Shown here in pieces: positions 7,075-23,509 of a stretch of 64,000 nucleotides of DNA. Every line of letters begins with the position of its first letter. Position 1 is the first letter of the stretch. The notes below the pieces were generated by a model that was not told the origin of the DNA, ran no database searches, and worked only from the letters and a program-made list of their open reading frames with translations. The stretch covers positions 1 to 64,000 of the forward strand of contig NZ_JADNBB010000009.1 in assembly GCF_015550595.1 (NCBI RefSeq), in the 5' to 3' direction. This DNA is from Parabacteroides goldsteinii (GTDB taxonomy: Bacteria > Bacteroidota > Bacteroidia > Bacteroidales > Tannerellaceae). Made by a program: the position numbers and the translations under genes.

Positions 7075-8247
7075 TCAACTATCTCCACCGACATTTCCGT
7101 TGCCGCTCCAGGGTATTTCCTTCCATCGGGCAACAGTAACGGTTGTGCCTATTCCTTCGTTGATATCGGGATCGGGAGGATAAGGAGTGTCGGGCCCTCC
7201 CACACTCCCGTCTTCAAATACGATCTCATCATACCAATCGAGCACCTTCATTATCAGGCTACTTTCATTGTTTTTCACTTCGAGGGTAAAAATATACCGC
7301 TTGCCTTCGTCGAAAGAGATATTCCGGTCGATAGTGGCCCTGAGGATAGCTGTCTCATCGTCTCTTACCACGGTTATTTCCACCTCGAAAGGTTGGTCGT
7401 CTTTAGGAAGGACAACGCCTTTTGTTTTGTTCAGACCACAATTATCCGGATCAGAACCGGGATCGACCGGTTCAAACTCTTCTGCTGCAAATGTAACTTC
7501 CGCATCCGCCCCCGTACCGCCTCCCGTAGGAAGAATACCCGTATCCGTACCTGCCAACAGGACAGTACCCGAAGATGATATCTTTTTTATTACAAGAGAT
7601 GTTCCGTATAGCTGATCGAAAGGAAGTGCATTATCGGGTGAAGGAGCCACGTTGAATACCAACATCGCACATTTCCGGCTAAAAGTTCCGAGTGTCACCC
7701 GCCTGGCAGTCTTCGTCACAGCCACACCACGGACAAAAGAAGTCATTACATCTTCCTTGTGAGGAAGACCGGTTATCTTATAAAAACCGTCATTTCCTTT
7801 CAATAGCGGCCGTGCCGGGGAGATAGCATAAAAATCGTACATACCTCCCCTGACGGTCAAACCTTTGGCTGTACCCGCCGTTTGCTTTCCGTTCCCATTC
7901 ACGCAACAAGGGGATAAACTGCCGTCATTCCCTACCACGTAGGTCGCTTCGAACGAGGGGGCCATTGTAGAGAAGGAAGCATCGGACGGCGTATCTCCTA
8001 CACTACCGGTGAAGTAAGCTCCGATACGTACGGTCGCCCCGGCTGGCAAAGGAGTCGGAGGTGGGGTGGCAACCTCTCCGGCACGGGTCAGGAGTTCCGG
8101 CACACCCAGACTGGGCCTGCCGAAACTGAGGGCTACCGGCCGACTCTCTTCCGGTACGATCTCCTCTACCGGTCCCGCCGTACACCCAAGCAGCAATATA
8201 CCGGCCAGTAGCCACAACAGATATAACTGTACTCGATTCCGTTCCAT
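7075..8247 (-). CDS. Fimbrillin-like lipoprotein
   Basis: A 390-residue lipoprotein with lipobox LLGC (Cys22), in the fimbrial operon 31 bp after the previous gene. The layout is that of fimbrillin-clan proteins: TAGP linker, a beta-rich N-terminal domain (VALSFGRPSLGVPELLTRAG with an Arg in a cleavage-like position), a second beta-sandwich, and the end strand pattern KRYIFTLEVKNNESSLIMKVLDWYDE before a Pro/Gly-rich tail ending GNVGGDS. It is likely a minor subunit near the tip, judging from its place just before the large adhesin gene. The exact subfamily is uncertain. Confidence 0.78.
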   Translation of the reverse strand: MERNRVQLYLLWLLAGILLLGCTAGPVEEIVPEESRPVALSFGRPSLGVPELLTRAGEVATPPPTPLPAGATVRIGAYFTGSVGDTPSDASFSTMAPSFEATYVVGNDGSLSPCCVNGNGKQTAGTAKGLTVRGGMYDFYAISPARPLLKGNDGFYKITGLPHKEDVMTSFVRGVAVTKTARRVTLGTFSRKCAMLVFNVAPSPDNALPFDQLYGTSLVIKKISSSGTVLLAGTDTGILPTGGGTGADAEVTFAAEEFEPVDPGSDPDNCGLNKTKGVVLPKDDQPFEVEITVVRDDETAILRATIDRNISFDEGKRYIFTLEVKNNESSLIMKVLDWYDEIVFEDGSVGGPDTPYPPDPDINEGIGTTVTVARWKEIPWSGNGNVGGDS

Positions 8248-8278: not shown

Positions 8279-9403
8279 CTATTCCACGGGCACATCAGTT
8301 GTACCGCCCTCCGTCCAGCCGACAACTTCAACATTGGCTATGCTGATACCCTGCGGAGATAGCCGGATGTTATAGATGTAATTGTTTCCCTTCAGCCAGT
8401 TGGCAATAAATGTACTTGCCCCACCACCTCCTGCCGCCGGAGCCATCGTAAAAACAGAACCATTGTCGAGCGTCAGTTCCAACGTCACAGGGACATCCAC
8501 CACCGGTATAACCATTCCGAAAACCTGTATTGCAACCTTCCGAATATCATCTTCATCAGCGCCAACCTCCGTCCCTACTCTCCGCAGGTCGCCATCAGCC
8601 GTAAACCACAACTCACCCACCGCCGGCATCGTACCGTTCAGCTCCCCCGTTGCCAGGTTCAGCTTCGCGGAAGTCGACTTTTTAAAACCGCCGTTACTTT
8701 TCAGTACGACCTTCTTCACCCGGCTGTCGGCAAACTCCGAACCGCCATCCGTTTCCAATACACGGAAACTGACTTTAGCCAAGGCATGGTTCATCGTCAA
8801 AGAAACTTCGGGATGCCAGCGGTCCACCTCCGTCGGCACTTTACAATACAGGAAATCATCCTGGTCGGTTTCCCACTGCACATCGGTCGATGCATCTACC
8901 GGATCATGGGTGTCGCTGAAGTAAAACTTCTGCTTATCGAGCACCTTTACACCACTCATCACGGGTACTTTCGGTGTTCCCGATAAAGACACGCTTTTCT
9001 CCGCCGGGGCATACCCGTATACGGTCCCTTTCTCCGAAAACAACAAAAGTATCTCCTCACCCTCTGCCAACTCCCAGCCGGGCGAAACAGCAGTCGCATT
9101 GTACACAAACACCTGTGTATGAATGCCCCCGGCATAGGCGGAACCGTTCGCTTTTGTGACTGAAAGCCCCACCTGCATAAGCGGATTGGGGTTCGCCACA
9201 CCAGCTACAGCCCCTCCCGTCGCAATGCTTCTCGATTCTATCTCAACCGATAAGCCCAGAATCTTAACGCTCAGGGGAACACCCTCCTCCACATCGCCTT
9301 TGCCTTCGTTTCCCCCGTCGCCCATAAAGATCGTGGCCTCCGTACAAGCGTTAGCCAGCAGGAAGAAAACGGCTGTCGAAAATGTATATATGAATTGTTT
9401 CAC
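8279..9403 (-). CDS. Fimbrillin family lipoprotein
   Basis: Subunit of the fimbrial operon. I prefer a GTG start at 9403, which gives a short signal (KQFIYTFSTAVFFLLANAC) ending in a lipobox-like ANAC and leaves 22 bp to the upstream gene. An ATG at 9478 would overlap that gene by 53 bp and put 25 odd residues before the signal. Fimbrillin features: the motif MNHALAKVSFRVLETDG, as in FimA/Mfa1-clan subunits; LNLATGELNGTMP; and the closing pattern LKGNNYIYNIRLSPQGISIANVEVVGWTEGG. Lipidation, export and protease cleavage with strand exchange would polymerise it, by analogy with Porphyromonas fimbriae. Confidence 0.85.
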   Translation of the reverse strand: MKQFIYTFSTAVFFLLANACTEATIFMGDGGNEGKGDVEEGVPLSVKILGLSVEIESRSIATGGAVAGVANPNPLMQVGLSVTKANGSAYAGGIHTQVFVYNATAVSPGWELAEGEEILLLFSEKGTVYGYAPAEKSVSLSGTPKVPVMSGVKVLDKQKFYFSDTHDPVDASTDVQWETDQDDFLYCKVPTEVDRWHPEVSLTMNHALAKVSFRVLETDGGSEFADSRVKKVVLKSNGGFKKSTSAKLNLATGELNGTMPAVGELWFTADGDLRRVGTEVGADEDDIRKVAIQVFGMVIPVVDVPVTLELTLDNGSVFTMAPAAGGGGASTFIANWLKGNNYIYNIRLSPQGISIANVEVVGWTEGGTTDVPVE

Positions 9404-9425
9404 GGGCTTTATTTTTTGGATATGA

Positions 9426-10718
9426 TTACAGAGGTATTTCGTCCTGTTCGTTGTCCGACCAGGCTTCAACACTGACATCCATCACCGTAAGTTTGTTACG
9501 GCCTGCGGAAAGTGTATAGATGTAATTGTTGTTGGGTTCCCATTGATTACCGCTCAGCGTTACGGGGTACACAACGGGAGGATTACTACCTTCTTGAAGC
9601 GTAATCTCCAGGTCGATTTCATCTTCTCCGAAAGTAACAGGATACACTATGGCACTGACCGATTTGGAGACTGTCTTACCATTTATCCCGCCGGTCGTAG
9701 TCCCGGTCTGTATAAAGGCATACTGCCCTTCCGAAGCATCCACTTGCCGCATCAGGACGTAATTGACGATCGTCCGGCTTAATTCCACCGCCGTAACTGT
9801 TCCTGTTATCGTACCGTCCGTCAAAGACATTTTGCCGTTGCCTGTCTTGAACAGATTGGATCCACCGGTATGATTCTTTATGGTAAACTTCGTAAAATTC
9901 ACATCGTTATCACTCAGACGGCCGCCATCGTACACCCGGAAAGAGACCATCGCCATCGCATGTTTCATATCCAGATTGATCTTGTAACCAGGATTGTCCG
10001 TATCCAGATTATCAGGTTCATCATCCGGTGTAACAGGTGTATGCCCGTCGGCGCGCCCGTTATTTACGTTGCGTCCGCCGTCAGCCGCAAAATACAGGTA
10101 GTCTTTTTCTGCCGCCAGGGACAGGTTGACCTGGTCAACCCTCGCTGTAGATGCCCACGCACCCATGTTCCAATATTTCTTCGCATTGTTTCTCTGAGCG
10201 TCTATCTCTCCGACGGCCAGAACTGTTACCGGTATTTTAAGGTCGGACTCCGTATTTACAGTCATAAGCGTATTGGTCACTGTTGCGTCATACGGATAAT
10301 AAGCATATACTCTACCTATATCTTTCGTCAGATAATAGGGAGATTCGTTCGTTGCCGCAAAAGTGCCCCCTTTGGTTTGTATGGAAATCCAGTTAGTTCC
10401 CCTTTCATCGCCCATATACCAAACATGGTGGCCTGTGTAATCCGTTCCATCAGGTGTATACCAGCCATTTACAGTCTTATTCGTTATTAACACGCCTAAT
10501 CCAGGAGCCTCAGTCGTATAATCGGTATAGGTAATAAGGTCACCGCTCACGACCGATTTTGTGGCCGATCTGGTTCCGGCTTCCACCTTCAGATTAGGTG
10601 AAATACCTAAAGCGACCTGATCGTCGTCGCCGGAGTCGATCACTTCCGTTTCTGTTTCAGAGCAACCTGTTGTTGCCGTAAGGGCTATAGCTATAACCCA
10701 CATTGCCGTTGTTTTCAT
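9426..10718 (-). CDS. Fimbrillin family lipoprotein (430 aa)
   Basis: A lipoprotein (lipobox TTGC, Cys19) with the clearest fimbrillin pattern of the cluster: KINLDMKHAMAMVSFRVYDGG in the middle, a segment like KMSLTDGTITGTVTAVELS, and the terminal pattern EPNNNYIYTLSAGRNKLTVMDVSVEAWSDNEQDEIPL. NYIYTL...VEAW is the hallmark of the fimbrillin C-terminal domain. It lies centrally in the operon, 60 bp after the preceding gene, and is paired with a closely similar subunit downstream. It could be the main shaft subunit, though sequence alone does not show which fimbrillin is the major one. Confidence 0.87.
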   Translation of the reverse strand: MKTTAMWVIAIALTATTGCSETETEVIDSGDDDQVALGISPNLKVEAGTRSATKSVVSGDLITYTDYTTEAPGLGVLITNKTVNGWYTPDGTDYTGHHVWYMGDERGTNWISIQTKGGTFAATNESPYYLTKDIGRVYAYYPYDATVTNTLMTVNTESDLKIPVTVLAVGEIDAQRNNAKKYWNMGAWASTARVDQVNLSLAAEKDYLYFAADGGRNVNNGRADGHTPVTPDDEPDNLDTDNPGYKINLDMKHAMAMVSFRVYDGGRLSDNDVNFTKFTIKNHTGGSNLFKTGNGKMSLTDGTITGTVTAVELSRTIVNYVLMRQVDASEGQYAFIQTGTTTGGINGKTVSKSVSAIVYPVTFGEDEIDLEITLQEGSNPPVVYPVTLSGNQWEPNNNYIYTLSAGRNKLTVMDVSVEAWSDNEQDEIPL

Positions 10719-10778: not shown

Positions 10779-11744
10779 TCAGATAGGCAGTTCACCGGCA
10801 TCTTGATCCGTCCAGGGTTCCACACCAATAAAAGAAGTTCGAATACCAGTGCCCGCAGTGAAAAAAAGCGAAATGACGTGCCGTTTACCTGCCCGGAAAC
10901 CGTTTTCTACGGTGACAGATACAGGTGTCACCGTTTCTATCCCATTTCCTTTTCCATCTTTCGTCGTGGTTATCTCCAACCGGAGCGGATTCCCGCCCAT
11001 TCCTACGGGCAGAGATACGGGAAGCAGGACATACCCTTGTGCCTCAGGCACCTCTCCCCCTTCATCCACCTGCGGAACGGATAATTCCTCTATCCCCTGC
11101 ACGGTCACATTTTTTATCGCTTCAGCGGAAGAAACATCTGTCAACAAAGGGGATCCACCCGCACAATCGAGCTCCTGACGTGTATGGACTCCCATAGCTT
11201 CGATCTTCACGATCTCTCCCCACAACGCTGCACGGTCACTATAACAAACCAATCCGACCTGCGTCAGCAAATGACGGAACAGGCAGGTCCGTACAGGAGC
11301 ATAAGCGGTTGCCGACAGGCATCCCGTTGCCATGATATCCGTCATACCATCCAAAGTAAAAGTAACCTTACCCGTCAACGCATCGACATCATTCTCCACC
11401 GGGTAATAACCATGCAAGCGAATATGGCTTCCATCAGCCGGATACAACTGGGGGATATCAAACTGAATCGGACGGTTCCCGCCTCCTCCGCTACGGACGG
11501 CTTTATGCAGGCTCCACCTACCATAGGTATTGCCAATTTCGTCCTGACGCGCAAAACAGATATCCAGATCCGCTTCATAACCCGAATTGATCACAACACG
11601 CGTAGACAGCCCGATCGCCCCTTCCAGACTGACCATCGTTTCGGCAACAGGCAGCGGCTCACGGCCACTACCATCCGAACAGCCAGTTATTGCCGGAAGC
11701 AGGAAAGCAAATACTTTTATCATTAATTTATTCATCGATAACAA
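10779..11744 (-). CDS. Fimbrillin-like lipoprotein (321 aa)
   Basis: A 321-residue lipoprotein with lipobox ITGC near residue 22; ATGs at codons 1 and 4 are both possible. It resembles the next upstream gene product closely: both have an Arg-Val/Ala start to the first strand (STRVVINSGYEADLDICFARQDEIGN versus the similar TRAVIDAGYGTDL), an RTGWL/RTCLFRHLLTQVGLVC block and the end VISLFFTAGTG...GVEPWTDQDAGELPI. The two genes therefore look like a tandem duplication that diverged. Export as lipoprotein and assembly into the pilus is inferred from family and operon. Confidence 0.82.
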   Translation of the reverse strand: MLSMNKLMIKVFAFLLPAITGCSDGSGREPLPVAETMVSLEGAIGLSTRVVINSGYEADLDICFARQDEIGNTYGRWSLHKAVRSGGGGNRPIQFDIPQLYPADGSHIRLHGYYPVENDVDALTGKVTFTLDGMTDIMATGCLSATAYAPVRTCLFRHLLTQVGLVCYSDRAALWGEIVKIEAMGVHTRQELDCAGGSPLLTDVSSAEAIKNVTVQGIEELSVPQVDEGGEVPEAQGYVLLPVSLPVGMGGNPLRLEITTTKDGKGNGIETVTPVSVTVENGFRAGKRHVISLFFTAGTGIRTSFIGVEPWTDQDAGELPI

Positions 11745-11771: not shown

Positions 11772-12725
11772 TTATTCTCCGGGGGTTATTACGGCACCTC
11801 CTCCATTACCCGGCTGCCATACGGCAATACCTGCTTCCGCCATGACCGTGCCATCCTCTGCAAAAGTGAGCGTGACCAGGTGGGATTGTCCCGCCTGTAC
11901 TCCACCATCAATATTCATTATAGGGACAGGCAATGTTTTTATCCCTCCGTTGTAAGTTGCTGTCACTTCCAGGTTAATTGCCTGGGCTGTTCCCATATCT
12001 GTTGCCGGATAAAGCAGCAGGTAGCCGATTTGGGGAGTTGCCTGACCAACTACCGAGACAACCGCCGGACAGTTCTTTATACGCAGGCTCTTGTCGGCAG
12101 CACCGGTAGCCCTTAAACCGGCGCCCGTCGTTTTATCGAGCGAAAGTGTCAATTCCGTGGCTATATCTTTTACCGTTATGGAAGTGACTCCCGTCCATTT
12201 GGCTACGGCTTCGGCAGAACCCACGCAAATGAATTGCAACTGGGTAAGCAGATGGTTAAAGGTGAATGCCTCAAACGGGGCGGCCAACCAGCCCGTCCGT
12301 ATCTCCGTTGCCATAATATCTTCATCTCCGGTTATAGTATAAACAACGCTCAGCGGATTGGCCGTCCCTGTTTCCGGACTCTTGCGGGGATAGTAGCCGA
12401 TCAGGGCCGAGACTCCGTTTGCCGCCAGATAGTTTTGTTTTTGCTCGAAGGTGATCGCCGTATTACCTGTACCGCCGGTGCGGATAGCATCGAGCGACGG
12501 GGTATTCCAGTTCATACAGGCAGGCAGGTTATCAATCCGGGCAAACGACACATTCAGATCCGTGCCATAACCGGCGTCTATTACCGCACGGGTAGTTCCT
12601 CCGATACCCGCCGTTATACGGATCGCTTCCCCACTACTTGCCGTCACCGGCTCTTCTGTGTTGGTACAACCCGCCAGAAAAGCGACTGCCAACAGAATTG
12701 TTACAAAAAATACATTTGTTCTCAT
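11772..12725 (-). CDS. Fimbrillin-like lipoprotein (317 aa)
   Basis: First fimbrillin of the operon, directly after the anchor gene (30-bp gap). The lipobox is LAGC (Cys20). Landmarks are TRAVIDAGYGTDLNVSFARID, FTFNHLLTQLQFICVG and the C-terminal HLVTLTFAEDGTVMAEAGIAVWQPG, with a Trp in the position seen in fimbrillin C-termini. FNHLLTQLQF matches the FRHLLTQVGL block of the downstream paralog. Its place next to the FimB/Mfa2-like gene would suit a base-proximal or major subunit, but this is inference. Confidence 0.82.
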   Translation of the reverse strand: MRTNVFFVTILLAVAFLAGCTNTEEPVTASSGEAIRITAGIGGTTRAVIDAGYGTDLNVSFARIDNLPACMNWNTPSLDAIRTGGTGNTAITFEQKQNYLAANGVSALIGYYPRKSPETGTANPLSVVYTITGDEDIMATEIRTGWLAAPFEAFTFNHLLTQLQFICVGSAEAVAKWTGVTSITVKDIATELTLSLDKTTGAGLRATGAADKSLRIKNCPAVVSVVGQATPQIGYLLLYPATDMGTAQAINLEVTATYNGGIKTLPVPIMNIDGGVQAGQSHLVTLTFAEDGTVMAEAGIAVWQPGNGGGAVITPGE

Positions 12726-12755: not shown

Positions 12756-13676
12756 TCAGGGATCGACAATACCCGAACCCTCATTTCCTTTTTTCCATTC
12801 CGCCAACTGGACAGTCAAGCCCTTTATTTCGTCGTACCTGACAGTCAGGTCAAGTATCACCGAAAACGTGTTCTCTATGAATGCCTTACCAATCTCTTCC
12901 GTGATATCGACCGACGTGGCTACTTCTTTTCCGTCTGACAATTCCATATCCAGCAGGAGACTGACCGGACTGCCACCGGTTTCCTTTTCCGACAGGTTGA
13001 ACAGGTTCTGTGTCGTGGTATATATTCCGGAAGGAGTTCGTTCAGGCTCAAATACGACAAAGGCAGGCGTTCCGGTAAAAGGTTTACCATTCGACAGGTA
13101 TACACCTGGAGACAGACCGCTGAGTCTGCCTGTCAGTTTCTCACATTGAACCACTCCGCTCGTCTCCCCGCTTGTAACCTTTATATTCAGCTCCAACCTT
13201 CGCACCAGACTGACAGGACTCAACTCCCGTACGACAAAATTTTCGCCCCCGACATCGATTTCTTCGCAACCGGTACCGTACAGGTTACCGGGTTGTTCGA
13301 TCAAGACCTGTGACGATTTCAGGGAAGATACCTGCCTGGCTCTCCCACAAGCCTCCTCATATCCGTTTTCTGTTTCCAGCAAAACATTCTCGCAGTCGGT
13401 ATTACAGACTACCACTTTATAATGTCCCGCCGGAAGTGTACCTTCATATCCCCAAGTGTCTCCACGTCGCACAACGGGACTGCCTGTGCCATCTTTATAA
13501 AAATGATAAGTCATAACCGAAGGTCGTACCCGGATTTGCCAATCGAGAAGCAGGCGCACCCTTCCGTTTTTCTCCCAATCTTGATCCGGCGTATGGTAAG
13601 TACATGCCGATAGGAATACGTCGCATACCAAGCATATCATCCATTTTCTTATTCTACGTTTTTTTTGTTTTCCCAT
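12756..13676 (-). CDS. FimB/Mfa2-like (DUF5119-type) fimbrial anchor lipoprotein
   Basis: A 306-residue lipoprotein: a very basic start (MGKQKKRRIRKW), hydrophobic core and lipobox ending LSAC (Cys25). The mature start RVRLLLDWQIRVRPSVMTYHFYKDG and the segment PAGHYKVVVCNTDCENVLL are typical of the DUF5119/FimB-Mfa2 group, which stays lipidated in the outer membrane and anchors or ends the pilus. It follows the DUF3575 gene by 16 bp and precedes the fimbrillins, the normal order for such operons. Assignment to the clan is firm; anchor versus accessory subunit is inferred. Confidence 0.83.
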   Translation of the reverse strand: MGKQKKRRIRKWMICLVCDVFLSACTYHTPDQDWEKNGRVRLLLDWQIRVRPSVMTYHFYKDGTGSPVVRRGDTWGYEGTLPAGHYKVVVCNTDCENVLLETENGYEEACGRARQVSSLKSSQVLIEQPGNLYGTGCEEIDVGGENFVVRELSPVSLVRRLELNIKVTSGETSGVVQCEKLTGRLSGLSPGVYLSNGKPFTGTPAFVVFEPERTPSGIYTTTQNLFNLSEKETGGSPVSLLLDMELSDGKEVATSVDITEEIGKAFIENTFSVILDLTVRYDEIKGLTVQLAEWKKGNEGSGIVDP

Positions 13677-13692
13677 ATTTACACTCCTTTCC

Positions 13693-15060
13693 TTATCTGA
13701 TTTGAAAACGATATACCAGATTGATATTCAAACCCACCATAAAACCTGTCGATGAAAAACGGGTTTCCAGATAATTCTTGTCATCTACTTTATCGTAACG
13801 GTACTTCTTTCCCTCCGATACCGAACGATAACCTGCCCGTACCCCTGCCTCCATACAGAAACCTTTCCCGAAAGGAATCAGACAACCTAAACTGCCACCT
13901 GCCGTCCAGAAACGACCGGTACGCCCATAGAAAATATCCTTATCAGGATCAATCGCGCTGCCCTGTATGTCAAAGTCACCGTATTCACAAAACAACCCGG
14001 TATTAAGCCACATAAACTCACCGGGACGCAACGACCACACGCGGGGCTCGACGGAAAAAGAAGAGACAGACCAGTGGTCGCGCACCTTATTCTTATAAGA
14101 GAAATCGGAATACATGCCTGATACGGCAATCGACCAACGGTCGGCAAAAAAGTATTCCAGTGCCAGATTCGGCATAAAAGATCCGGTTTCCATCTTTGTT
14201 TCACCGGTTCCCAGACGCACCGAAGGGACTATAGTGCACCACGGGAGCAGGTTGGTTTTAACGGCAAGATATGCAGCTCTGCGTTCCGGTTTCCTTGCAA
14301 CGACTGGTTGTTCGGGTTGTTCTGTTTTTATCCGCATTGCTTCACGTGTCGTCACCACCGTTGCTAAAGAAACAGCCGGGGGGGCCGATTCACCTTTCCC
14401 CTTTCTCAAGGTGTCGACCACCGATGCCAGCCGATAATCCTCCAGTTCCGTCCGGTCGAAAAGCGGGTCGTCTATACGATACACTTCACGATCGTAACCA
14501 CCAGCCTCTCCACGACGGTACAAATCGACATAAGGAACGGCACCATATCGGTCGACCGCCGCTTTCATCGCAACCGGATAACGACTATCACTGTAATGGA
14601 TCGAAGTATTAGCAAACCACGGAAGCGGTTTATACACCTCATAGACATGTATCCGGTCACGATAACTGCCGCTACGGTCGATATAAAAGGCTACGCATTC
14701 ATGAGGGATATCGAAACGGGTCTTCAAGTAAGAACGGATACGGTTCGCACGAAGGGAAGCTTCATTTATCACCGACTCTTCTTCACCGCCGTAAGCATTC
14801 ACATGCGAAACGATCAAAAGGTGGGAGCCACCTTTCTGCAGACGGTTGCGGGAAACATCCAAAAGTCGTCCCATCCGCTCCAGCTGGTAGGCGTTATCAC
14901 CATAATCTGCAAGGAACATGTCGCTGTTCTCTTTGAAAGAGAATAAAAAGGACTCCGCCTTATGATAGGTCGTTGTCTGGGCTGTCACTCCCCGCCAAAG
15001 CAGGCTGAAAAGTAACAACAGGCAAAACGCTTCTCTTTGTGATCTTTTTATCCTATACAT
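13693..15060 (-). CDS. DUF3575 protein with OmpA-like N-terminal domain
   Basis: A 455-residue secreted protein: signal peptide (AFCLLLLFSLLWRGVTAQ), then an OmpA-like segment (residues about 45-125, with LLIVSHVNAYGGEEESVINEASLRANRIRSYL resembling a peptidoglycan-binding OmpA domain), a linker, and a C-terminal DUF3575 beta-barrel domain from about 265 (AYLAVKTNLLPWCTIVPSVRLG) ending in the outer-membrane-like NINLVYRFQIR. Proteins of this type begin Bacteroidales fimbrial operons and are thought to serve in outer-membrane placement of the pilus. It is the first gene after the invertible promoter segment, so its expression should depend on the switch. Confidence 0.85.
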   Translation of the reverse strand: MYRIKRSQREAFCLLLLFSLLWRGVTAQTTTYHKAESFLFSFKENSDMFLADYGDNAYQLERMGRLLDVSRNRLQKGGSHLLIVSHVNAYGGEEESVINEASLRANRIRSYLKTRFDIPHECVAFYIDRSGSYRDRIHVYEVYKPLPWFANTSIHYSDSRYPVAMKAAVDRYGAVPYVDLYRRGEAGGYDREVYRIDDPLFDRTELEDYRLASVVDTLRKGKGESAPPAVSLATVVTTREAMRIKTEQPEQPVVARKPERRAAYLAVKTNLLPWCTIVPSVRLGTGETKMETGSFMPNLALEYFFADRWSIAVSGMYSDFSYKNKVRDHWSVSSFSVEPRVWSLRPGEFMWLNTGLFCEYGDFDIQGSAIDPDKDIFYGRTGRFWTAGGSLGCLIPFGKGFCMEAGVRAGYRSVSEGKKYRYDKVDDKNYLETRFSSTGFMVGLNINLVYRFQIR

Positions 15061-15114
15061 ATATAATTATATCAATACCAGCCTTTGATTTTCTGATCTA
15101 CCTCTAAAAAGCTA

Positions 15115-15133
15115 CCTTATTTATATAATAAGG
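15115..15133 (+). repeat. Left 19-bp inverted repeat of the fimbrial switch
   Basis: CCTTATTTATATAATAAGG is the exact reverse complement of 15507-15525. The site is itself nearly palindromic, with 7-bp arms CCTTATT and AATAAGG around TATAT, the form of a tyrosine recombinase core site. Confidence 0.92.
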
Positions 15134-15506
15134 GGAAAGGAGAAAAACACCTCTACAAAGAGGAGAATTTCATGGTTTTTGTCCCCGGATAATCTTGGAT
15201 TGATGTCTTATTGCAGTATTTTGTGGTGTAAAAACATGTAAAAATAATAACAGTTTTTCGCAAACGGATATTTATAAAACAGCAGTCTCCACCCGCTTTA
15301 TGCCTTATTCTTTGAATATTATGATTTTAAGGTCACAAGTAGGAAACTGTATTAATTAATGTGAATTTTATATGTTTTTTTTAGGATTTTGACCAAAAGC
15401 TTTGTTTTTCCGTTAGATTCTTCCTATCTTTGCAGAGTATTCAAATTCTTTTATGAAATCCATCCATTCTAAAGGATTGGATATGAGAGAAAAAAGAAGA
15501 ATATGA
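15134..15506. other. Invertible promoter segment (373 bp)
   Basis: The segment lies between perfect inverted repeats, beside a tyrosine recombinase gene and in front of the fimbrial operon. Its one good promoter faces right, away from the operon, so the assembled form is OFF. Inversion maps position x to 30640 minus x, which would place the -7 box at 15208-15215 facing left, about 150 bp before the DUF3575 gene. A 17-codon frame at 15453-15506 (ATG ... TGA) ends exactly at the repeat boundary; whether it is translated is unknown. No larger gene fits. Confidence 0.85.
15401..15432 (+). promoter_or_regulatory. Bacteroides-type promoter inside the invertible segment
   Basis: TTTG at 15401-15404 and TATCTTTG at 15425-15432 with a 20-bp spacer match the Bacteroides -33/-7 consensus (TTTG, TAnnTTTG). 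It points right, opposite to the fimbrial genes and antisense to the recombinase gene. Confidence 0.85.
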
Positions 15507-15525
15507 CCTTATTATATAAATAAGG
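15507..15525 (-). repeat. Right 19-bp inverted repeat of the fimbrial switch
   Basis: CCTTATTATATAAATAAGG, the exact reverse complement of 15115-15133. It ends 4 bp before the stop codon of the recombinase gene. Identity stops at the outer bases, so the repeat is exactly 19 bp. Confidence 0.92.
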
Positions 15526-15529
15526 GAGA

Positions 15530-16450
15530 TTAGGCCGCCATCAGTTCCTTTATACCTTCAGAAACCTTTTTATTGGCTTCCCCTACCTTACCGGCATCAA
15601 AAGCGGACAAATAAATATGCGTCATTTTCTCAGATGAATGTCCCAGTGCCTGACTGATTATAGCGATCGGTATACCCAAATGATAAGCCTCAGAGGCCCA
15701 GCTATGACGGAAAACATAAGTCGTTAACTTGGCCGATAAGCCTAATAAAACCTGTACCTCTGCCAGATACCGGTTTTCCTGTGCCAGACAATGTTTATAC
15801 TGTTCATGCGTGGCCCCCTCCTGTAACACCGGAAAAAGACATTTGGAATCTTCCCGCCTGTAACGATCGATCAGCAGCTGCATTGACTCCGAAACTTCCA
15901 TCTCAATCAGCGCTCCGGTTTTCTGACGGCGATACGACAACACCTTTCCTTCTTCAACCAGATTCTCCCTACTGAGACGAACGATATCCGCAAAAGGCAT
16001 ACCGCAGGCAAAAAAGGAAAACAGGGCCATATCCACCGCCAGCTTTTTCTCCGGTTCCTCTTCCAGATCAAGCGCAGCCATCTGCTTGATCACTTCCACC
16101 GGAACCGCCCGTTTAACAGTCTCCTCCCGTTGCAACTGCATCCCCTCGAACGGCCGTTCCTCAGGCCGCCCTTTCCATCCCCGGCAGGCACGGTTGTACA
16201 TCGCCCGTAGGTTACTGATATAGCTGTTCACCGAATTCACGCGCAGTTTCTTTCCTTTCAGATACCGAATAAACTCCTGCACAACATCCTGCGTCACATC
16301 TCCCAGCAGCCCGCTCTTTCCTCTCTCACGAATGAATGCGGCAAAATGATTACGGGTAGCACGGTACAGATCGGCCGTACTTTCATCCCCGTTACTACGC
16401 TTTTGCTTTTCCTGCTCGAGCATCAGTATACAAAAATCTTTATTTCTCAT
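15530..16450 (-). CDS. Tyrosine-type site-specific recombinase (fimbrial switch invertase)
   Basis: A 306-residue integrase-family protein: SAM-like core-binding domain (about 20-105) and catalytic domain (about 115-300). Visible catalytic positions: Lys177 (RRQKTG), Arg248-His249 (YVFRHSW), His271 (LGHSS) and Tyr280 (THIYLS). The first catalytic Arg, expected around FFACGMPFADI, is Cys149, and the HxxR histidine is not present; loss of these residues is known in some Bacteroidetes recombinases such as IntDOT. Its stop codon is 4 bp from the right inverted repeat, so the 373-bp promoter segment is its likely substrate. A 22-bp-period repeat array lies about 155 bp upstream of its start. Confidence 0.9.
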   Translation of the reverse strand: MRNKDFCILMLEQEKQKRSNGDESTADLYRATRNHFAAFIRERGKSGLLGDVTQDVVQEFIRYLKGKKLRVNSVNSYISNLRAMYNRACRGWKGRPEERPFEGMQLQREETVKRAVPVEVIKQMAALDLEEEPEKKLAVDMALFSFFACGMPFADIVRLSRENLVEEGKVLSYRRQKTGALIEMEVSESMQLLIDRYRREDSKCLFPVLQEGATHEQYKHCLAQENRYLAEVQVLLGLSAKLTTYVFRHSWASEAYHLGIPIAIISQALGHSSEKMTHIYLSAFDAGKVGEANKKVSEGIKELMAA

Positions 16451-16606
16451 AACTTTTTTCTTCTTTATCGTTATTAATCAAAAAGATAAAGATAAACATT
16501 TCCAACTTGCAGATTGTTCGTTTTTCGCGGTTTTAGCTAACGGCACTGTCTCTAAAACGACCTATACTAGACAGAAAATCCCCATCCACGCCCCCATTTT
16601 CGACCT

Positions 16607-16728
16607 TCATTCCGACCCTTATTCAAATTCATTACAATGATTCTTCCCAATCATTGTAATGCCCCGACCAAGTCATCACAATGACTTCATACACTCATCA
16701 CAATGAACCAGACCAGTCATTGCAATGA
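16607..16728 (+). repeat. Palindrome array, 22-bp period (TCATTnnAATGA)
   Basis: Cores start at 16629, 16651, 16673, 16695 and 16717: TCATTACAATGA, TCATTGTAATGC, TCATCACAATGA, TCATCACAATGA, TCATTGCAATGA. The period is exactly 22 bp, with 10 unconserved bases between cores. A degenerate unit (TCATTCCG) precedes them in phase at 16607, and a lone related copy is at 16889-16900, out of phase. The surrounding gap 16451-17345 holds no credible gene; besides the array I see only a terminator. Confidence 0.85.
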
Positions 16729-16942
16729 AATTTTTAACATAGTAGAATATTAGGAAATTTACTTCGTGATTAGCTCATAAAACGGAGGGAATACACCTTT
16801 TACAAGGCTAGAAGGTATTTCCGGACAGTTTGTTTTCATGTAACAGATTGTAGTTGGTTTTGTCCTATATCTATCATCTGCTCTAAAAACATTACAATGA
16901 TTGTATTTATGGCTATCCAAATGTCAGTACCAAAAAGAAAAT

Positions 16943-16980
16943 CCCCTCAATCCGTCATTATTAAACTTCGGATTAAGGGG
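16943..16980 (-). terminator. Leftward intrinsic terminator downstream of the SMC operon
   Basis: Arms CCCCTCAATCCG (16943-16954) and CGGATTAAGGGG (16969-16980) pair with one mismatch. On the minus strand a T-rich tract (ATTTTCTTTTT) follows, so it ends leftward transcripts, probably read-through from the jet-like operon ending at 17346. Confidence 0.65.
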
Positions 16981-17345
16981 ATAAATATTTTTGAACTGTC
17001 CTTTACCTCTATATATAGCAAAGAAAGAGTATATGAATTAACAGAATGTCAATTTGTAATATTTCTATAGTTGAAATCTTGTGAGTGTAATCTAAAATAC
17101 AAATACCTCCAGACTCTGCTCGTTCAACAAAAATTGTTTGAGTCCCATGGTTACGATGCCATCTTCGTTACGCCTGATAAGGATGTTATCCTTCATAATC
17201 ACGATGCCCTATCAGCTTTGACAAATATTTATTTCTTGAAAAGTTCATATTAGCCCATTTAAAATTTTGCCCCAAACGGCAATTTTCTAAAATGTTACAA
17301 ACTTACTCTTTTCTTCCGATAAACACCAAACACTTGCATTGATAC

Positions 17346-18302
17346 TCACAAATCAATGTACCTCTTTACCATCGCGACCAAATCATTAGTTTCCTCCTCT
17401 ACCCATCTATCCGTACTTATCAATTCATTAATCAAATGAATATCTTTAGAAGTAAAACAGAATTGCTCCAAACCTGAAAAGGGAAGTGTAGTTTTCCATT
17501 TGCTATTATGTTTTTTCATATTGACGGGATACTTTTTAATTGGTTCTGAAGGATAAAGAAGCTTTATATCACAGCCTTTCTCCTGAAATATTTTTTTTAA
17601 CCGAACATAGATTTCCAAGCCATTATAATCCCAATCACAAGAATAGAATAAGAGTTTATCCAATTTCTTTTCATCAATAAAATGAGTTCCTTTTGTATTA
17701 TTTCCACCTACGTACCATAACTCTATTTTGTATTCACGAGCAATGCGGGGCATTTTCAGAAAATTGAGGTTTTCACAAAGCACTATACAACGCGGTTCAC
17801 CAACATCTACAACGAATCTCCACTGATGATTTTTGGGATCTTCCAGAGGATAATCCTCTACTCCTAAGATAGAAAGCACCAAATCGTTCAGACTTTGATA
17901 GGTATCCAAATGCTTGCTTCCACCATGTTCAAAGAAGTCTTCACTAAATGTATGTCGGGTCGTAAGAGAGTTCCGGATTTGTTCCCTGTTATCTGCTACA
18001 AACCGTAAAGAGCGGACATCATTAACCGTATATGTCTGTCGACCAGTCACATCTGGTTGTACAGACTTCAAAAAACGATCATATTCCAAATAATCTTCCA
18101 GGTAGCGTTTAGCAAAATAAGCATCGTACTTTTCACTTTTAATCAAATAATTATGATTGCCTGGCTGATATTGCACTAACTTTCTATTTATCAAGTTCCG
18201 GAACTTATTATCACTTTTTTTTGTCGCTGATATTTTGTTCCCCTTGTAAAGAGAATACATTGCAGTGAGTGTTCGCCAGGTCAATTCAGCTTCCATAGTC
18301 AT
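17346..18302 (-). CDS. jetD: JetD-like TOPRIM nuclease subunit of a Wadjet-like system
   Basis: A 318-residue protein with an N-terminal winged-helix-like part and a TOPRIM domain of DUF2220 type. Glu177 in VLCENLNFL and the DxD pair Asp223/Asp225 in CDWDYNGLEI are the expected metal-binding residues. In Wadjet, JetD cuts plasmid DNA after the SMC complex has extruded a loop, giving selective protection against small circular plasmids. The start overlaps the SMC gene by 17 bp, and it is the last gene of the AT-rich operon. The family call rests on the TOPRIM pattern and the operon; subtype is uncertain. Confidence 0.85.
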   Translation of the reverse strand: MTMEAELTWRTLTAMYSLYKGNKISATKKSDNKFRNLINRKLVQYQPGNHNYLIKSEKYDAYFAKRYLEDYLEYDRFLKSVQPDVTGRQTYTVNDVRSLRFVADNREQIRNSLTTRHTFSEDFFEHGGSKHLDTYQSLNDLVLSILGVEDYPLEDPKNHQWRFVVDVGEPRCIVLCENLNFLKMPRIAREYKIELWYVGGNNTKGTHFIDEKKLDKLLFYSCDWDYNGLEIYVRLKKIFQEKGCDIKLLYPSEPIKKYPVNMKKHNSKWKTTLPFSGLEQFCFTSKDIHLINELISTDRWVEEETNDLVAMVKRYIDL

Positions 18303-21300
18303 TTACATTTATAAAATTTGCCAATTCCGGATCAATATCATTTCGGCTACGTATCTCTATCGGAGCATAATTAACTTCTTCTTCTACATCTGGATTACGG
18401 TTAAGGATATATACATGCTGTTCGCTATATTTTCCCAATGGATTAATTGAAAAAGTCAGTATCTGATAATCATATTCTTCAGCGATATCACTCAATAGGT
18501 CAAAATTACTACCTAATCCTTCTGCCTCATCAATGGGCATAAATCGTAATCCATCTTCTTGTGCATTGTTTTTGTTACCAACAATAGAGAGACGGGCTAT
18601 ACACAACAGAGCAATGGCAGCATACGTCTGCCCGGTACTACCTTTATTATTTCGTCCGGCACGATTTTTCATATCAAGGCTCAGTTCTATATATGAATTA
18701 GGATTCAGTAAATCTTCTAACGTTATGTCATTGGAATTATTATTGGTTATTTCACAGAAAGCTTTCATGATTTTTTCACGAATAGATACTTGCGTATTCA
18801 ATTCGTTCAAAATGGAGACATCGAACATATCTGTCATATTATCTAAAGTTGTCTTATGTTTAAATTGACTTAACCAGCTAACAGAAAACTGTAAAGAATC
18901 TGTTTTTTCGAGTTTCATATTATATGCACCAGATATCTTCTTTTTACTACTCGTAAAGAAGCGATTTATACGACGAATCTCATCCCATTGTGTTTCAACT
19001 TGTCGTTTCACCTCGGTTAATAAATCCTGGATTTTACCTATTTTCTTACTATTCAATTCCCTGTTTTTTTCATTAATATCTTCGAGCCTTTTCTTGATTC
19101 TACCGACGACTTCCTCTTCAATAATCATATCTTCAGGGAATAAGTCAGGCAACAAATTTGCTATTAATTCTTTAAAATCATGACTAGTTTCAAATTTGTA
19201 TTGTTCATTTGGTATGAAACTTTTTACCATATTGGTATACTGATTAATGTAGGTGGTGTTCCTTTGGTGATAAAGCACTTTTGCTTCTTCTACTGACTCC
19301 CAGCTTATCGCTGGAAAACTATCAATGGTAGGTAATTCCGTATAAAGTGATAGATATTCAGTTTCAATCATATTCAGGTGGTTCTCTTGATTTTCTATAT
19401 TCGCCATCAACTGTATTAATTCATCGCATTTATTCAAAGTGCTACTTAAAATGGTCAATTCATCCTTAAAGAACTCAATTTTATTATCTGCATTTATATA
19501 ATCATCTTCTTTATAAGCTTGAATAGTTTGTTCATGCAAAATAGTGTTCCACTCTGCTTCATACAGTTTTATTTTCTTTGATATCGAAATTAATAAACTG
19601 GTAGATTTTTGTATAAGATCAGGGAATATTTCAACTATATTTTTAAGCTGCATAAATTGATTGTACAGTAATGTTTGTTCTTCTTTCACATTTTTCACGG
19701 ACTGTTCTATTAAGTCTTTTGTTGCTAAGCTCTTCACTGACTGCTCCATTTGTTCGGGAGAGATATTTAAAATTTCTATTTCCTGAAATTTTTTTATTTC
19801 GGGCTTATGGAAAAATATATCTACTGAACGAGTAGGTGCATCAAGGGTATTTACTATATCATATAATTTTTTCCACAGTTCTAATTCTTCTTCAATTGTT
19901 TTTTTCTCCTGTTCTATATTGGCCACCTGTGATTGAAAATACTGTAAAATCGTCTCTCGATCATTATTAAGACTTTGCTGTTTTTCTGTTACGTAATTTA
20001 CAAACTCGCTTATTCCACCGAGACTTATCCAAAATCCTTCTGTATCGGGTCCTATATTTGTGTTTTTTAGTAATTCTTCTGGGGAGCAAACATAACGGTC
20101 AAACGGTTTAGGATGATTAGGCTTATTCATCCCATACTTCTGAAAATGATAAATTAGGCTTTCTTCTTCTTTTGTAAAATTACGTTGCAACGATAAAGCC
20201 CAACGTATAAGTGAATTAGGATTATTTATATCGTGGAACTGCTCTACCACGTGCAATTGTGATAAACGGTTACGTAATTCATCTGTCTTTTGGAGGTAAA
20301 AACTATTTCCTGCAGCTAATCCGCCTCTCCAGCCTGAATTTGTAAAAAGATCAATCAAACGTGAGCCAACTAATTTGTCCTTCAATTCTTTATAGTAAAT
20401 GTATTCTTTTTTTTGAGTTCTGTATTGTTTATAACAGGCAGCCAAGTCTCCAGGGAGAATGTTTAACTGTTCAATCATTTTGTTAGCATTATCCAACAAA
20501 CTTTTCTTTTGTCGCCATTCATCATAAATATCCCTTATTTTTTCATAAGCTAACTCTTTCTTATCCAAACCTCTTTGAGCCTCTTCTAACTCGTACTGAA
20601 CCAATACTTGTAATCCTGATAAATCCTCCCGGGCTTGTAAAAAGGTATAGAGTTCTTTTTTGAGAATTTCTTTATTTGAATCATAGGCTCTTTGCAAAAA
20701 CACATATTGAGAAGTCAAATATATTTTTTCTGCTTCTTTTTTTTCGATCAATACTTTATATAGATCACTAACTTGAAAGCACTTTTGTGTCAACAAAAGA
20801 ATTTCATTGTTATTTCTTCCATAGTCCACCGCATTTTTTTCTATTTCTTCTACGATTGACCTGTATTTATTCATGAAGTCTTTACCCTTTTCTTGCCCGA
20901 ATAAGAAATCCAACAAACTAGAACTTCTTGTAGTATCAAGTTCTTTCCCCCTCGAAAACGACTGAATTATCTTCGCATAATCTTTTAGTACTTTATCTTT
21001 ATCGGTAAGGTCAAGTGGTAGTATTTTATTTTTATAGAGTACTTTATGAAAAAAAGAAATCCGTTGCCAATCCTTAAAAACTAAGTTTTTTTCCTCCATG
21101 TATTCAATAATATCCTCTAATGGAATAATACATTCGTCATCCAGAAAATCGGCTGCATAAAGAGGTTTCGTCATAGGGGTAAACTCACCTTGTTCAATAG
21201 CAAGTCCTGCCTGTACAACAAAAGGGCGTGTGGCTTTGGAAGTACTTTCAAGATAGGCTCCTGCTGTAATAAATTGTCCATCGGCAACTTCTATATTTAC

Positions 21301-21564
21301 AAATGCATATCCATAGTCCAATGATTTACCTGGTGATCGCAAAACGAGGCCATCAGGTTCCCGTTTCCCCTGAACCGGAATGGTTGCGGAGCGGAAAGCG
21401 GAAGCCCCTACAAATATAAGTTGTAGTAAATCGGCTATGATACTTTTACCAGAACCGCTATCACCAATAAAATCGGTACGAGCAGGATGAAAAATGTAAT
21501 CGTTTTCCTGATGGTGTATGATACCAACAGTAGACAAACTGTAAATACGAGGATATTTTTTCAT
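18286..21564 (-). CDS. jetC: JetC-like SMC ATPase of a Wadjet-like system
   Basis: A 1092-residue SMC/MukB-like ATPase, the motor of loop extrusion in Wadjet. Walker A GDSGSGKS is at 34-41; long charged coiled coils occupy roughly 270-950 with a hinge-like interruption in between. The ABC signature region NKGSTGQTYAAIALL starts near 972, and Walker B FMPIDEAEGLG is near 1006-1018. Ends that match an SMC head, with no membrane segment, exclude a transporter. It begins 2 bp after jetB and overlaps jetD by 17 bp, implying coupled translation. Strongly AT-rich with codon usage unlike the flanking operons, suggesting transfer. RecN- or Rad50-like roles are less likely because of the partners. Confidence 0.88.
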   Translation of the reverse strand: MKKYPRIYSLSTVGIIHHQENDYIFHPARTDFIGDSGSGKSIIADLLQLIFVGASAFRSATIPVQGKREPDGLVLRSPGKSLDYGYAFVNIEVADGQFITAGAYLESTSKATRPFVVQAGLAIEQGEFTPMTKPLYAADFLDDECIIPLEDIIEYMEEKNLVFKDWQRISFFHKVLYKNKILPLDLTDKDKVLKDYAKIIQSFSRGKELDTTRSSSLLDFLFGQEKGKDFMNKYRSIVEEIEKNAVDYGRNNNEILLLTQKCFQVSDLYKVLIEKKEAEKIYLTSQYVFLQRAYDSNKEILKKELYTFLQAREDLSGLQVLVQYELEEAQRGLDKKELAYEKIRDIYDEWRQKKSLLDNANKMIEQLNILPGDLAACYKQYRTQKKEYIYYKELKDKLVGSRLIDLFTNSGWRGGLAAGNSFYLQKTDELRNRLSQLHVVEQFHDINNPNSLIRWALSLQRNFTKEEESLIYHFQKYGMNKPNHPKPFDRYVCSPEELLKNTNIGPDTEGFWISLGGISEFVNYVTEKQQSLNNDRETILQYFQSQVANIEQEKKTIEEELELWKKLYDIVNTLDAPTRSVDIFFHKPEIKKFQEIEILNISPEQMEQSVKSLATKDLIEQSVKNVKEEQTLLYNQFMQLKNIVEIFPDLIQKSTSLLISISKKIKLYEAEWNTILHEQTIQAYKEDDYINADNKIEFFKDELTILSSTLNKCDELIQLMANIENQENHLNMIETEYLSLYTELPTIDSFPAISWESVEEAKVLYHQRNTTYINQYTNMVKSFIPNEQYKFETSHDFKELIANLLPDLFPEDMIIEEEVVGRIKKRLEDINEKNRELNSKKIGKIQDLLTEVKRQVETQWDEIRRINRFFTSSKKKISGAYNMKLEKTDSLQFSVSWLSQFKHKTTLDNMTDMFDVSILNELNTQVSIREKIMKAFCEITNNNSNDITLEDLLNPNSYIELSLDMKNRAGRNNKGSTGQTYAAIALLCIARLSIVGNKNNAQEDGLRFMPIDEAEGLGSNFDLLSDIAEEYDYQILTFSINPLGKYSEQHVYILNRNPDVEEEVNYAPIEIRSRNDIDPELANFINVNDYGS

Positions 21565-21566
21565 AT

Positions 21567-22208
21567 TTATTCTTCTTTAAGCCAATTGTCAATATAATTA
21601 ATATAATCAGCAAACTCCCGTGTTATACGCTGAAATGCAGGAAAGATTATGAAATCGTCTTCTTTCAAATCAATCCATCTTAGTTTATGAAAATTCTTGA
21701 ATGCACGTTGTACTTCTTGATCAATACGAGCATCATTTGATTCAGTAAAACGTTCTTTGGTGCCTTTTGTCTTGACCAGTAGACGTTGCACATGCTTCTT
21801 AAGATCAGGCATATCTACGCGTATTAGAGCAACAAACTTTTTTACAGAAGTTAATTCTATGTTGTGATCGATATAATAAGCTTTGTACAGCAGCAAGGCA
21901 ATAAGAATATGTTCTTTGGGTAAAGACGACCGCTCAACAGAATAATTACTTCTTGATACAGGGTGATAGAGCGGGAAATAATAAAATTCGTTTCCACTAC
22001 CGGATGGAACGATAGTTATATTCTCGTGTCGTTTGAAATAGACAGTCAGATTATCTATATATTTATTTAGATAAAGAAAAAGTGCCTTATCTCCTTCATA
22101 TTGTATATGAGCACCTCTTTTTAGAGCGTCTACCAATTGTGAAAACAGTACCGCACCGTCTTCACATTCGAGAAAATCATATTTTTGAGTCATTTGCGTT
22201 TCATCCAT
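21567..22208 (-). CDS. jetB: JetB-like (MukE/kite-type) subunit
   Basis: A 213-residue protein of winged-helix-like composition with no catalytic motif, between the long N-terminal subunit gene and the SMC gene. In Wadjet complexes JetB is the kite/MukE-like protein that binds the kleisin JetA. Size and gene position fit exactly; sequence alone is weak (LPKEHILIALLLYKAYYIDHN suggests a helix-turn-helix region). Start overlaps jetA by 19 bp and the stop is 2 bp before jetC, so subunits are probably made in stoichiometric amounts. Confidence 0.75.
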   Translation of the reverse strand: MDETQMTQKYDFLECEDGAVLFSQLVDALKRGAHIQYEGDKALFLYLNKYIDNLTVYFKRHENITIVPSGSGNEFYYFPLYHPVSRSNYSVERSSLPKEHILIALLLYKAYYIDHNIELTSVKKFVALIRVDMPDLKKHVQRLLVKTKGTKERFTESNDARIDQEVQRAFKNFHKLRWIDLKEDDFIIFPAFQRITREFADYINYIDNWLKEE

Positions 22209-23509
22209 ATATCAGATATTGTATGTTTTGAACTGGGATTATCTATTTTTTCACTTGTATCAATCTGTATTTCCCAATGTGGATCTTCCTTATATTTTTT
22301 AATACTCTGGTCAATCACCTGTATAGCGAGTTGCAAATCATTATCGTGTTTTTCCAGACTGTCGAAGAAGATTTCAGAAAGATGTATGACATCGGTTTCC
22401 AAAGATTTCCGACGAATAAACTCCAACCACCATTGGATATGAATCTGGCGCATCATTTGCACATGACCTTTCCGATATGCTTCTTGCTCTTTTCTCGGGT
22501 CTTTTTTATATTCGGAACGCTGTATACGTTCCGGAGGGAAAAGACTTTCAGGTCTATCCACAGAGATAAAAACGGGAAATGAATCTGCCAATTGAATTTT
22601 TCCGTCATAGGGAAAAGGAAACTGTATCTGTTTATCTGTTACATGGCTTTTTTCGAGCAAGAAATACAAAAATTTCTCAACTTTGGTATTAAATATATCT
22701 CGGTTGAGAGAGGCAAAAAACTGTTTTATTTTAGGCTGTATTTTATCAATACGTGAATCTACCATTGCTAAACGGAGATGGATACCTTCAAAATACGAAA
22801 CGGCCTCGCTAATTAGATCATCTATTTCTTCACTTCTGTCGCGTACCGGATGTGAAATAAGAATATCATTCATGCGATCAGTTTCCCGAAAAGCTGCTCT
22901 TAACTCCCTGTTTTGCTGACGTATGGTATCAATTTGCTTTTCTATTTCCTGTAAAGCTACAAGCAAAGTTTCTTTACGCCTTTTAGCTTTTTCACTTAAA
23001 GCTGTTACGGAACGGTCAATCTGTTGGTTAAGATAGTCGACTTGTTCCAATAAAAGAGTTCGAGACTTGAACAAGTCTACTGTAAGCCAATTTTTTATTT
23101 GTTCTTCTGTGACGGCAACTTCAAGCTTCTCATATAGTTCCTCACAAGTTAATTCGATAAAGGTGGGATTAAAGCGCTGAGATATTAGACGATGTATCTT
23201 ATCACATATCTGAAAACCAAAATCAGTAAACATATAGGTCTGATTTTCATCATTATATATAAGATAAAACTCCTGTAGTTCTAGAATATAAGCTGTATAA
23301 GTCCCCCATTGTAACCGTATAGGCTCACGTTCGATAAGACTTACAGCTTGAAAAGCCCGATGTATATCTTTTTCCTTAAAAATCCCATGTTCAAATTCTC
23401 CATTCTTCACCCGTTCATACAACCAGATTACAGCCAATCCTTTCTTTTTCTCTGGAAAAAGATGTTCATAGGTCTTTTCTATTTTTAATTGCTCGAATAA
23501 GGATTGCAT
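22190..23509 (-). CDS. jetA: JetA-like kleisin subunit
   Basis: A 439-residue protein, first gene of the operon. The N-terminal about 150 residues look like tandem winged helices (RLQWGTYTAYILELQEFYLIYN), followed by a coiled-coil middle (about 165-230, rich in KRRKETLLVALQEIEKQ-like heptads) and a C-terminal helical/winged part. This is the MukF-like kleisin layout expected of JetA, which bridges the SMC heads. No DUF3375 signature is evident to me, so a subtype other than classical type I, possibly type III, is likely. A TAAATTTG promoter box lies about 44 bp upstream. Confidence 0.75.
   Translation of the reverse strand: MQSLFEQLKIEKTYEHLFPEKKKGLAVIWLYERVKNGEFEHGIFKEKDIHRAFQAVSLIEREPIRLQWGTYTAYILELQEFYLIYNDENQTYMFTDFGFQICDKIHRLISQRFNPTFIELTCEELYEKLEVAVTEEQIKNWLTVDLFKSRTLLLEQVDYLNQQIDRSVTALSEKAKRRKETLLVALQEIEKQIDTIRQQNRELRAAFRETDRMNDILISHPVRDRSEEIDDLISEAVSYFEGIHLRLAMVDSRIDKIQPKIKQFFASLNRDIFNTKVEKFLYFLLEKSHVTDKQIQFPFPYDGKIQLADSFPVFISVDRPESLFPPERIQRSEYKKDPRKEQEAYRKGHVQMMRQIHIQWWLEFIRRKSLETDVIHLSEIFFDSLEKHDNDLQLAIQVIDQSIKKYKEDPHWEIQIDTSEKIDNPSSKHTISDIWMKRK

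Follow-up and report, generated by a model that had tools for sequence, protein, structure and literature searches.

Phase-variable promoters are well known in Bacteroidales, as the original prediction stated, and the Tsr19/IVp-I system of Bacteroides fragilis has long exemplified the kind. In the sections of the source that deal with it, the tyrosine recombinase Tsr19 (BF2766) has an invertible promoter immediately downstream, with a surface operon ahead, and this promoter is mostly OFF in culture (PMC4747536). All of the 96 deletion colonies screened (96/96) had the tsr19-downstream promoter OFF. The bias was lost with a plasmid-borne recombinase, which the authors take to mean either that the chromosomal gene is suppressed or that orientation is controlled in some other way (PMC4747536). 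The likeness of the locus described here to that system is one of description. Unlike at our locus, the target of Tsr19 is an extracellular polysaccharide, and Tsr19 acts on a distant promoter too.

Another phase-variable surface locus of B. fragilis (Weinacht et al., 2004) is, in the passage of PMC12632263 that concerns it, recombinase-driven and includes a protein matching the N-terminus of a fimbrial protein; this likeness is also one of description. PhaseFinder-type surveys of gut invertons have catalogued inverted repeats around Bacteroides promoters near surface genes (PMC11892184). These surveys differ in being read-based, and Parabacteroides is not mentioned by name in the main text of PMC11892184. 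In the E. coli fimE-fimS-fimA system, according to the part of PMC9993118 that describes it, an invertible promoter segment of 314 bp precedes a fimbrial operon and its orientation affects the recombinase messenger. It differs in having two recombinases and 9-bp repeats (PMC9993118) and is analogous, belonging to a different family.

We analyzed a 64,000-nucleotide stretch of Parabacteroides DNA (the window), part of contig C85 in a genome of 6.5 Mb. In the literature covered on invertible promoters, fimbriae and Parabacteroides, on DUF3575 with fimbria and on Tsr19/Tsr15, mostly from non-subscription papers, neither the switch found here nor its repeat is named; with this coverage, we do not claim a first description. 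The switch is an ordinary, well-supported further case of a known kind, and its twist is an OFF bias. What is unusual is mainly that every close copy found is OFF (15/15).

Organization of the probable switch

Positions 15115-15525 very probably form a phase-variation promoter-inversion switch for the fimbrial operon. The mechanism originally predicted is supported by the anatomy of the locus, by matching cores in 34/34 repeat pairs, by promoter placement in 15/15 close copies and by inversions at two sets of related loci. The elements of the switch are as follows.

15115-15133, operon side: left inverted repeat (IR-L), CCTTATT-TATAT-AATAAGG
15134-15506, bordered by a repeat at both ends: invertible segment, 373 bp
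15150-15163, minus strand: terminator-like hairpin CCTCTTTGTAGAGG with a T-run, just within IR-L in the present orientation
15281-15297, minus strand: another terminator-like hairpin, oriented like the operon
15401-15432, plus strand: Bacteroides-type promoter TTTG-N20-TATCTTTG, directed at the recombinase gene, OFF with respect to the fimbrial operon
15507-15525, recombinase side: right inverted repeat (IR-R)
15530-16450, minus strand: tyrosine recombinase, 306 aa, with SAM-like and Phage_integrase domains (Pfam), the presumed invertase
16629-16728, strand not assigned: five palindromic 12-mers of the TCATNNCAATGA type repeating every 22 bp exactly, upstream of the recombinase start

A direct sequence check confirmed that CCTTATTTATATAATAAGG (15115-15133), when reverse-complemented, is identical to 15507-15525, so that the perfect 19-bp inverted repeats claimed around 373 bp hold letter for letter. 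Because the arms CCTTATT and AATAAGG are complements of one another, the polarity of the site is given by the 5-bp core (TATAT versus ATATA) alone, again as predicted. In 30 first-order-Markov versions of the window, perfect inverted repeats of 16 bp or longer, 19 bp included, did not occur within 700 bp, whereas the real window has two perfect inverted repeats within that distance, the 19-bp repeat of the switch and one of 25 bp. The locus has what characterizes invertons, inverted repeats that match perfectly or nearly so and lie a few hundred base pairs apart, at 15115-15525, and the segment holds a promoter of the TTTG/TAnnTTTG type. There was no Rfam match in 14900-17600, no exact copy of the 19-mer in viral contigs, and no counterpart of the recombinase-to-DUF3575 stretch in phage records.

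The promoter consists of TTTG at 15401, a spacer of 20 and TATCTTTG at 15425-15432 on the plus strand. As proposed, this one consensus promoter (15401-15432) points away from the eight-gene operon, which is on the minus strand. No TAnnTTTG occurs on the operon strand in the 54 bp separating the left repeat from the DUF3575 start. In a flipped segment the -7 box would fall at 15208-15215 on the minus strand, ending 148 bp from that start. The predicted OFF orientation is correct for the assembly, and 15/15 close copies share it; for the window's segment, OFF denotes the state of the assembly only.

These features suggest the following mechanism. The recombinase encoded at 15530-16450 would pair the inverted 19-bp sites, with their 7-bp arms and 5-bp cores that are obliged to match, and flip the 373 bp lying between them. 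As assembled, the sole recognizable promoter of the segment is directed away from the operon (OFF). After a flip, with its -7 box upstream of DUF3575, it would turn on transcription of the eight-gene type V pilus operon (ON). From the sequence, we infer that the window's own segment is inverted by the adjacent recombinase and, once flipped, drives DUF3575.

The hairpin at 15150-15163 could keep transcription of the recombinase gene from continuing into the operon. A hairpin at its place was otherwise found in L071 only, while the hairpin at 15281-15297 has a counterpart at a near-equal position in L059, L061, L068 and L073. We considered a segment terminator as a conserved insulator, which is clear in the window, yet terminator-like sites in the operon direction are present in only 9/15 close copies and there are none in 6/15. 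Since sites in the OFF direction, in the insert or the recombinase gene, also occur in 9/15 close copies, the insulator idea stays at the level of a suggestion. In the OFF direction, terminator-like sites are absent from the window's insert and recombinase gene.

The fimbrial operon

The operon ahead of the switch was predicted to be fimbrial and to have eight genes, and both parts of this description held up. It runs on the minus strand from 15060 down to 4480.

13693-15060, minus strand: gene 1, DUF3575 protein (PF12099)
12756-13676, minus strand: gene 2, DUF5119 protein (PF17145)
11772-12725, minus strand: gene 3, fimbrillin-like (PF13149)
10779-11744, minus strand: gene 4, fimbrillin-like, under the Pfam cut-off (PF13149, 23.6 bits versus 27)
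9426-10718, minus strand: gene 5, fimbrillin-like (PF13149)
8279-9478, minus strand: gene 6, fimbrillin-like (PF13149)
7075-8247, minus strand: gene 7, fimbrillin-like (PF13149/PF15415)
4480-7047, minus strand: gene 8, BACON/DUF4906/Lcl_C protein (Pfam)

The five fimbrillin-like genes stand in a one-strand row, which is the arrangement of a type V pilus (Mfa/fimbrillin) operon, and the product of gene 8 is perhaps the tip subunit. The fim fimbriae of E. coli are of the chaperone-usher type, and fimE lies directly upstream of fimS and is co-directional with it. In the scanned operon proteins of the window no chaperone or usher family was found; they are of the Mfa type instead. The locus therefore works like E. 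coli fimE-fimS but is not a member of that system. Directly behind the last fimbrial gene, at 4082-4360, is a gene for a small DNA-binding protein of the HU/IHF type, which could possibly help recombination.

The recombinase and its upstream region

The recombinase gene ends, as claimed, 4 bp from the right repeat (stop codon to IR-R), and the locus thereby has the tyrosine recombinase beside a repeat that is typical of Tsr-type local switches. At 32/35 loci the distance between stop codon and repeat is -12 to 13 bp. The exceptions are L062 and L072, which have no intact gene there, and L119, with 169 bp. Because the stop codon abuts the repeat, the recombinase messenger should extend at least into the invertible segment, and the promoter, in its OFF direction, is aimed antisense at the recombinase gene.

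Residues R175, K177, R248, H271 and Y280 of the recombinase are invariant in an alignment of 40 sequences, and the position of the first catalytic His is occupied by Y245. The canonical catalytic Arg I is absent; P152 stands where the aligned XerC-like chain 4a8e has its Arg I. Among the 120 listed relatives the motif was located in 111, and 110 of these also have Pro there. In the integrase of CTnDOT, as the relevant part of the source describes, a downstream arginine replaces Arg I (PMC8138268). The idea that the missing Arg I marks a dead enzyme was dropped given this substitution in the CTnDOT group (PMC8138268), and R175 is a candidate for the same role in the window's recombinase. In total, 397 relatives passed the limit; among the 120 listed, a source name was given for eight, all of them (8/8) Parabacteroides. 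An AlphaFold2 model of the recombinase had a mean pLDDT of 87, and no claim is based on it.

The 12-mer array occupies the space from the recombinase start to the next gene, and one further copy of the 12-mer is found at 16889. It is possibly an operator array, with uncertain membership in the switch. Among 22 regions scored for upstream arrays, five had a strong one (the window, L068, L074, L075 and L077), four a weaker one (L061, L067, L071 and L073), and the remaining 13 had no array. Elsewhere in the genome, 22-bp arrays with other sequences lie beside unrelated genes, so the array may be a general intergenic repeat outside the switch.

A family of cassettes in Parabacteroides

Cassettes of equal build precede fimbrial, glycan and other operons in Parabacteroides, and the window holds one of them. 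In its own genome the exact 19-mer forms three inverted pairs, on C33, C66 and C85, and pairs with other cores are located at C66:237096, C66:88677, C85:209472 and C11:424218. The loci C85:15115, C33:97758 and C66:137347 have identical 19-bp sites, and the recombinases of the latter two are 64% and 62% identical to that of the window. Recombination between these three TATAT loci would give large rearrangements, and their presence in one genome permits a crosstalk test.

With collections of one genome per species, the motif CCTTATTTNNNNAATAAGG, a pattern that overlooks cores neither starting with T nor ending with A, was found in 14/38 genomes of the same genus, in several as pairs. An order-wide sample of 393 genomes gave 13 with a match, of which four belong to the same genus; the other nine had one site apiece, and motif pairs outside the genus were absent from this sample. 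We took 40 stretches around sites, 32 of which had a repeat pair, and the window brought the set to 33 loci, all of which have a recombinase gene or a remnant of one. Two P. distasonis records from the plasmid collection (perhaps chromosomal pieces) raised the number to 35. The stretches that had no repeat pair and stayed outside the 35 are L065, L066, L067, L122, L124, L125, L127 and L128.

Tyrosine recombinase strand exchange requires matching cores. For a core test we used the arms alone as criterion, with at most one mismatch per site, which gave 34 pairs in the 33 loci (two in L115). The cores were identical as inverted repeats in 34/34 pairs and as direct repeats in 0/34, with ten distinct cores represented. 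In 10,000 shuffles of the cores between loci, the mean was 4.5 matches and the maximum 13; the 34 pairs are neither unbiased nor independent, because most stretches were picked by a match to the site/partner pattern and some loci are orthologous.

The first gene on the operon side was assigned for ten loci. It encodes DUF3575 in L059, L061 and L118, and L078 has a fimbrillin-like protein that scores below the cut-off. L063 and L120 have a family-4 glycosyl transferase at this position, L064 and L117 an HU/DUF4469 protein, and L114 and L115 a regulator-like protein. DUF3575 is thus first in the window and in both other close copies tested (L059 and L061). In L140, a P. distasonis record, the genes past the switch are annotated as DUF3575, DUF3868 and Mfa1 family fimbria major subunit. 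These cassettes add a multi-copy switch family to Parabacteroides, a common gut genus, with a site grammar of fixed arms, a matching core and a fixed promoter distance.

Orientation of the segment across loci

Inserts were compared with the recombinase set on the left. The best insert similarity was on the plus strand for 84 pairs and on the minus strand for three (L116 with L117, L116 with L139, and L118 with L126). For L116 and L117, the recombinase side (88%) and the operon side (85%) match on the plus strand while the insert matches at 82% on the minus strand, with the switch-over at the repeats. L118 and L126 show the same pattern, with flanks on the plus strand at 78% and the insert on the minus strand at 83%. 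L117 and L139 are near-copies (97%). At the level of sequence, these comparisons show natural inversion exactly between the repeats in two sister branches, with two species each and collinear flanks. The recombinases of the branches with observed inversions are about 38-47% identical to that of the window.

The window's own group comprises 15 close copies, all collinear: five from G000 (including the window), four from G019, one from G004 and five from G022. In 15/15 of them TTG-N19-21-TAnnTTTG faces the recombinase, ending 72-76 bp from the recombinase-side repeat, with TATACTTG in place of TAnnTTTG in L077. With all copies in one orientation, the window's own branch offers no observed case of inversion. 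Two of the 15 (L062 and L072) have no intact recombinase gene.

For the 35 loci as a whole, promoter direction was OFF in 30, ON in one (L116) and unreadable in four; the distant branches were judged by a bare TAnnTTTG, which is weak for any single locus. TAnnTTTG is absent from L111, L118, L119 and L126, hence no direction was called for these. The cassettes of L118 (4733-4883) and L126 (9511-9662) are short, with inserts of 113-114 bp that have no TAnnTTTG and are mutually inverted, and the one in L118 precedes a DUF3575 gene. Contig ends near the repeats were considered as evidence for mixed orientation and set aside. In fragmented genomes, five contigs stop 90-330 bp past a repeat, and since duplicated copies (L111 and L122 share 994 bp at 96%) could cause such ends, this evidence was not used.

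Possible origins of the OFF bias

The prevalence of OFF can be explained in several ways. We give slightly better than an even chance to an ordinary switch, in which inversion would be roughly even and ON cells would be outgrown in culture, with assemblies therefore OFF. Surface organelles carry a growth cost, and selection for OFF fits the counts (30/31 readable loci) equally well. It also agrees with survey results, in the part of the paper that reports them, that many invertons strongly prefer one orientation, 1011 of 1837 having a minor-form frequency of 0 to 0.01 (PMC11892184). It is harder to reconcile with B. fragilis, where additional recombinase by itself abolishes the bias in the experiments described (PMC4747536). 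A possible though rather unlikely addition to the inversion model is that the segment also governs its own recombinase, with the OFF promoter running antisense into the convergent gene. The recombinase messenger would then end at hairpins of the segment in OFF and be freed in ON, and OFF would be the stable state. The close spacing of recombinase stop codon and repeat (-12 to 13 bp, 32/35 loci), the OFF direction in 30/31 loci with readable promoters and the lack of a terminator-like site in the OFF direction in the window's insert and recombinase gene point to such control. So do the portions of two sources that describe how E. coli fimS joins fimE to, or parts it from, a terminator (PMC9993118) and how the mostly OFF tsr19-downstream promoter of B. 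fragilis loses its bias with a plasmid recombinase (PMC4747536). However, 9/15 close copies do have an OFF-direction terminator-like site in the insert or recombinase gene, 6/15 are missing one in the operon direction, and a growth cost of fimbriae could yield an equal bias. The ON share in B. fragilis moreover rose upon gut colonization, so that conditions or selection count too, as far as the source's account of that experiment goes (PMC4747536).

A segment that no longer inverts, a frozen relic with repeats and promoter kept, would also produce the single orientation of the 15/15 close copies, and the recombinase gene is not intact in two of them (L062 and L072). We regard this as highly improbable, since the repeats of a relic would decay, yet those of the window are perfect and cores match in 34/34 pairs; the window's recombinase is also intact, with residues invariant among its relatives. 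Still more remote is a fixed regulatory region with repeats that are merely binding sites or hairpins. The palindromic arms could bind a dimer, but the exact between-species inversions at sister loci and the pairwise match of otherwise variable cores argue against it. Returning to the inversion switch, we propose, as a speculative and on balance doubtful generalization, that these switches are self-locking across the genus: the OFF promoter, reading antisense through the abutting recombinase gene, would silence the enzyme needed to leave OFF. This would explain both the OFF state of 30/31 readable loci and the loss of bias in B. fragilis when recombinase is supplied in trans, and antisense silencing in OFF would explain the B. 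fragilis behavior. If true, the partly private 5-bp cores would keep most cassettes of a genome separate, and the three TATAT loci here would form an exception that could exchange with one another. The uniform OFF state together with an abutting convergent recombinase gives a testable idea of why such switches can be mostly OFF in culture.

Neighboring genes

Some other features of the window were noted. A Fic-family protein (DUF4172 and Fic) is encoded at 2149-3252 and matches PADLOC SoFic. A four-gene minus-strand row at 17346-23509 includes an MksE-type condensin subunit (21567-22208, PF21980) and a large SMC-looking protein. These four genes resemble a Wadjet/Mks defense operon, although PADLOC models gave no match to them.

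Two divergent SusC-like genes are located at 50731-54243 (minus strand) and 54770-58252 (plus strand), each followed by a SusD-like gene. Their starts form the perfect 25-bp inverted repeat, at 54137-54161 and 54828-54852, 666 bp apart. This repeat could be a shufflon-like or promoter-flip site, or merely reflect two similar gene starts. A shufflon-like or promoter-flip arrangement is reported for SusC/SusD clusters of B. fragilis in the section of PMC4747536 that treats them.
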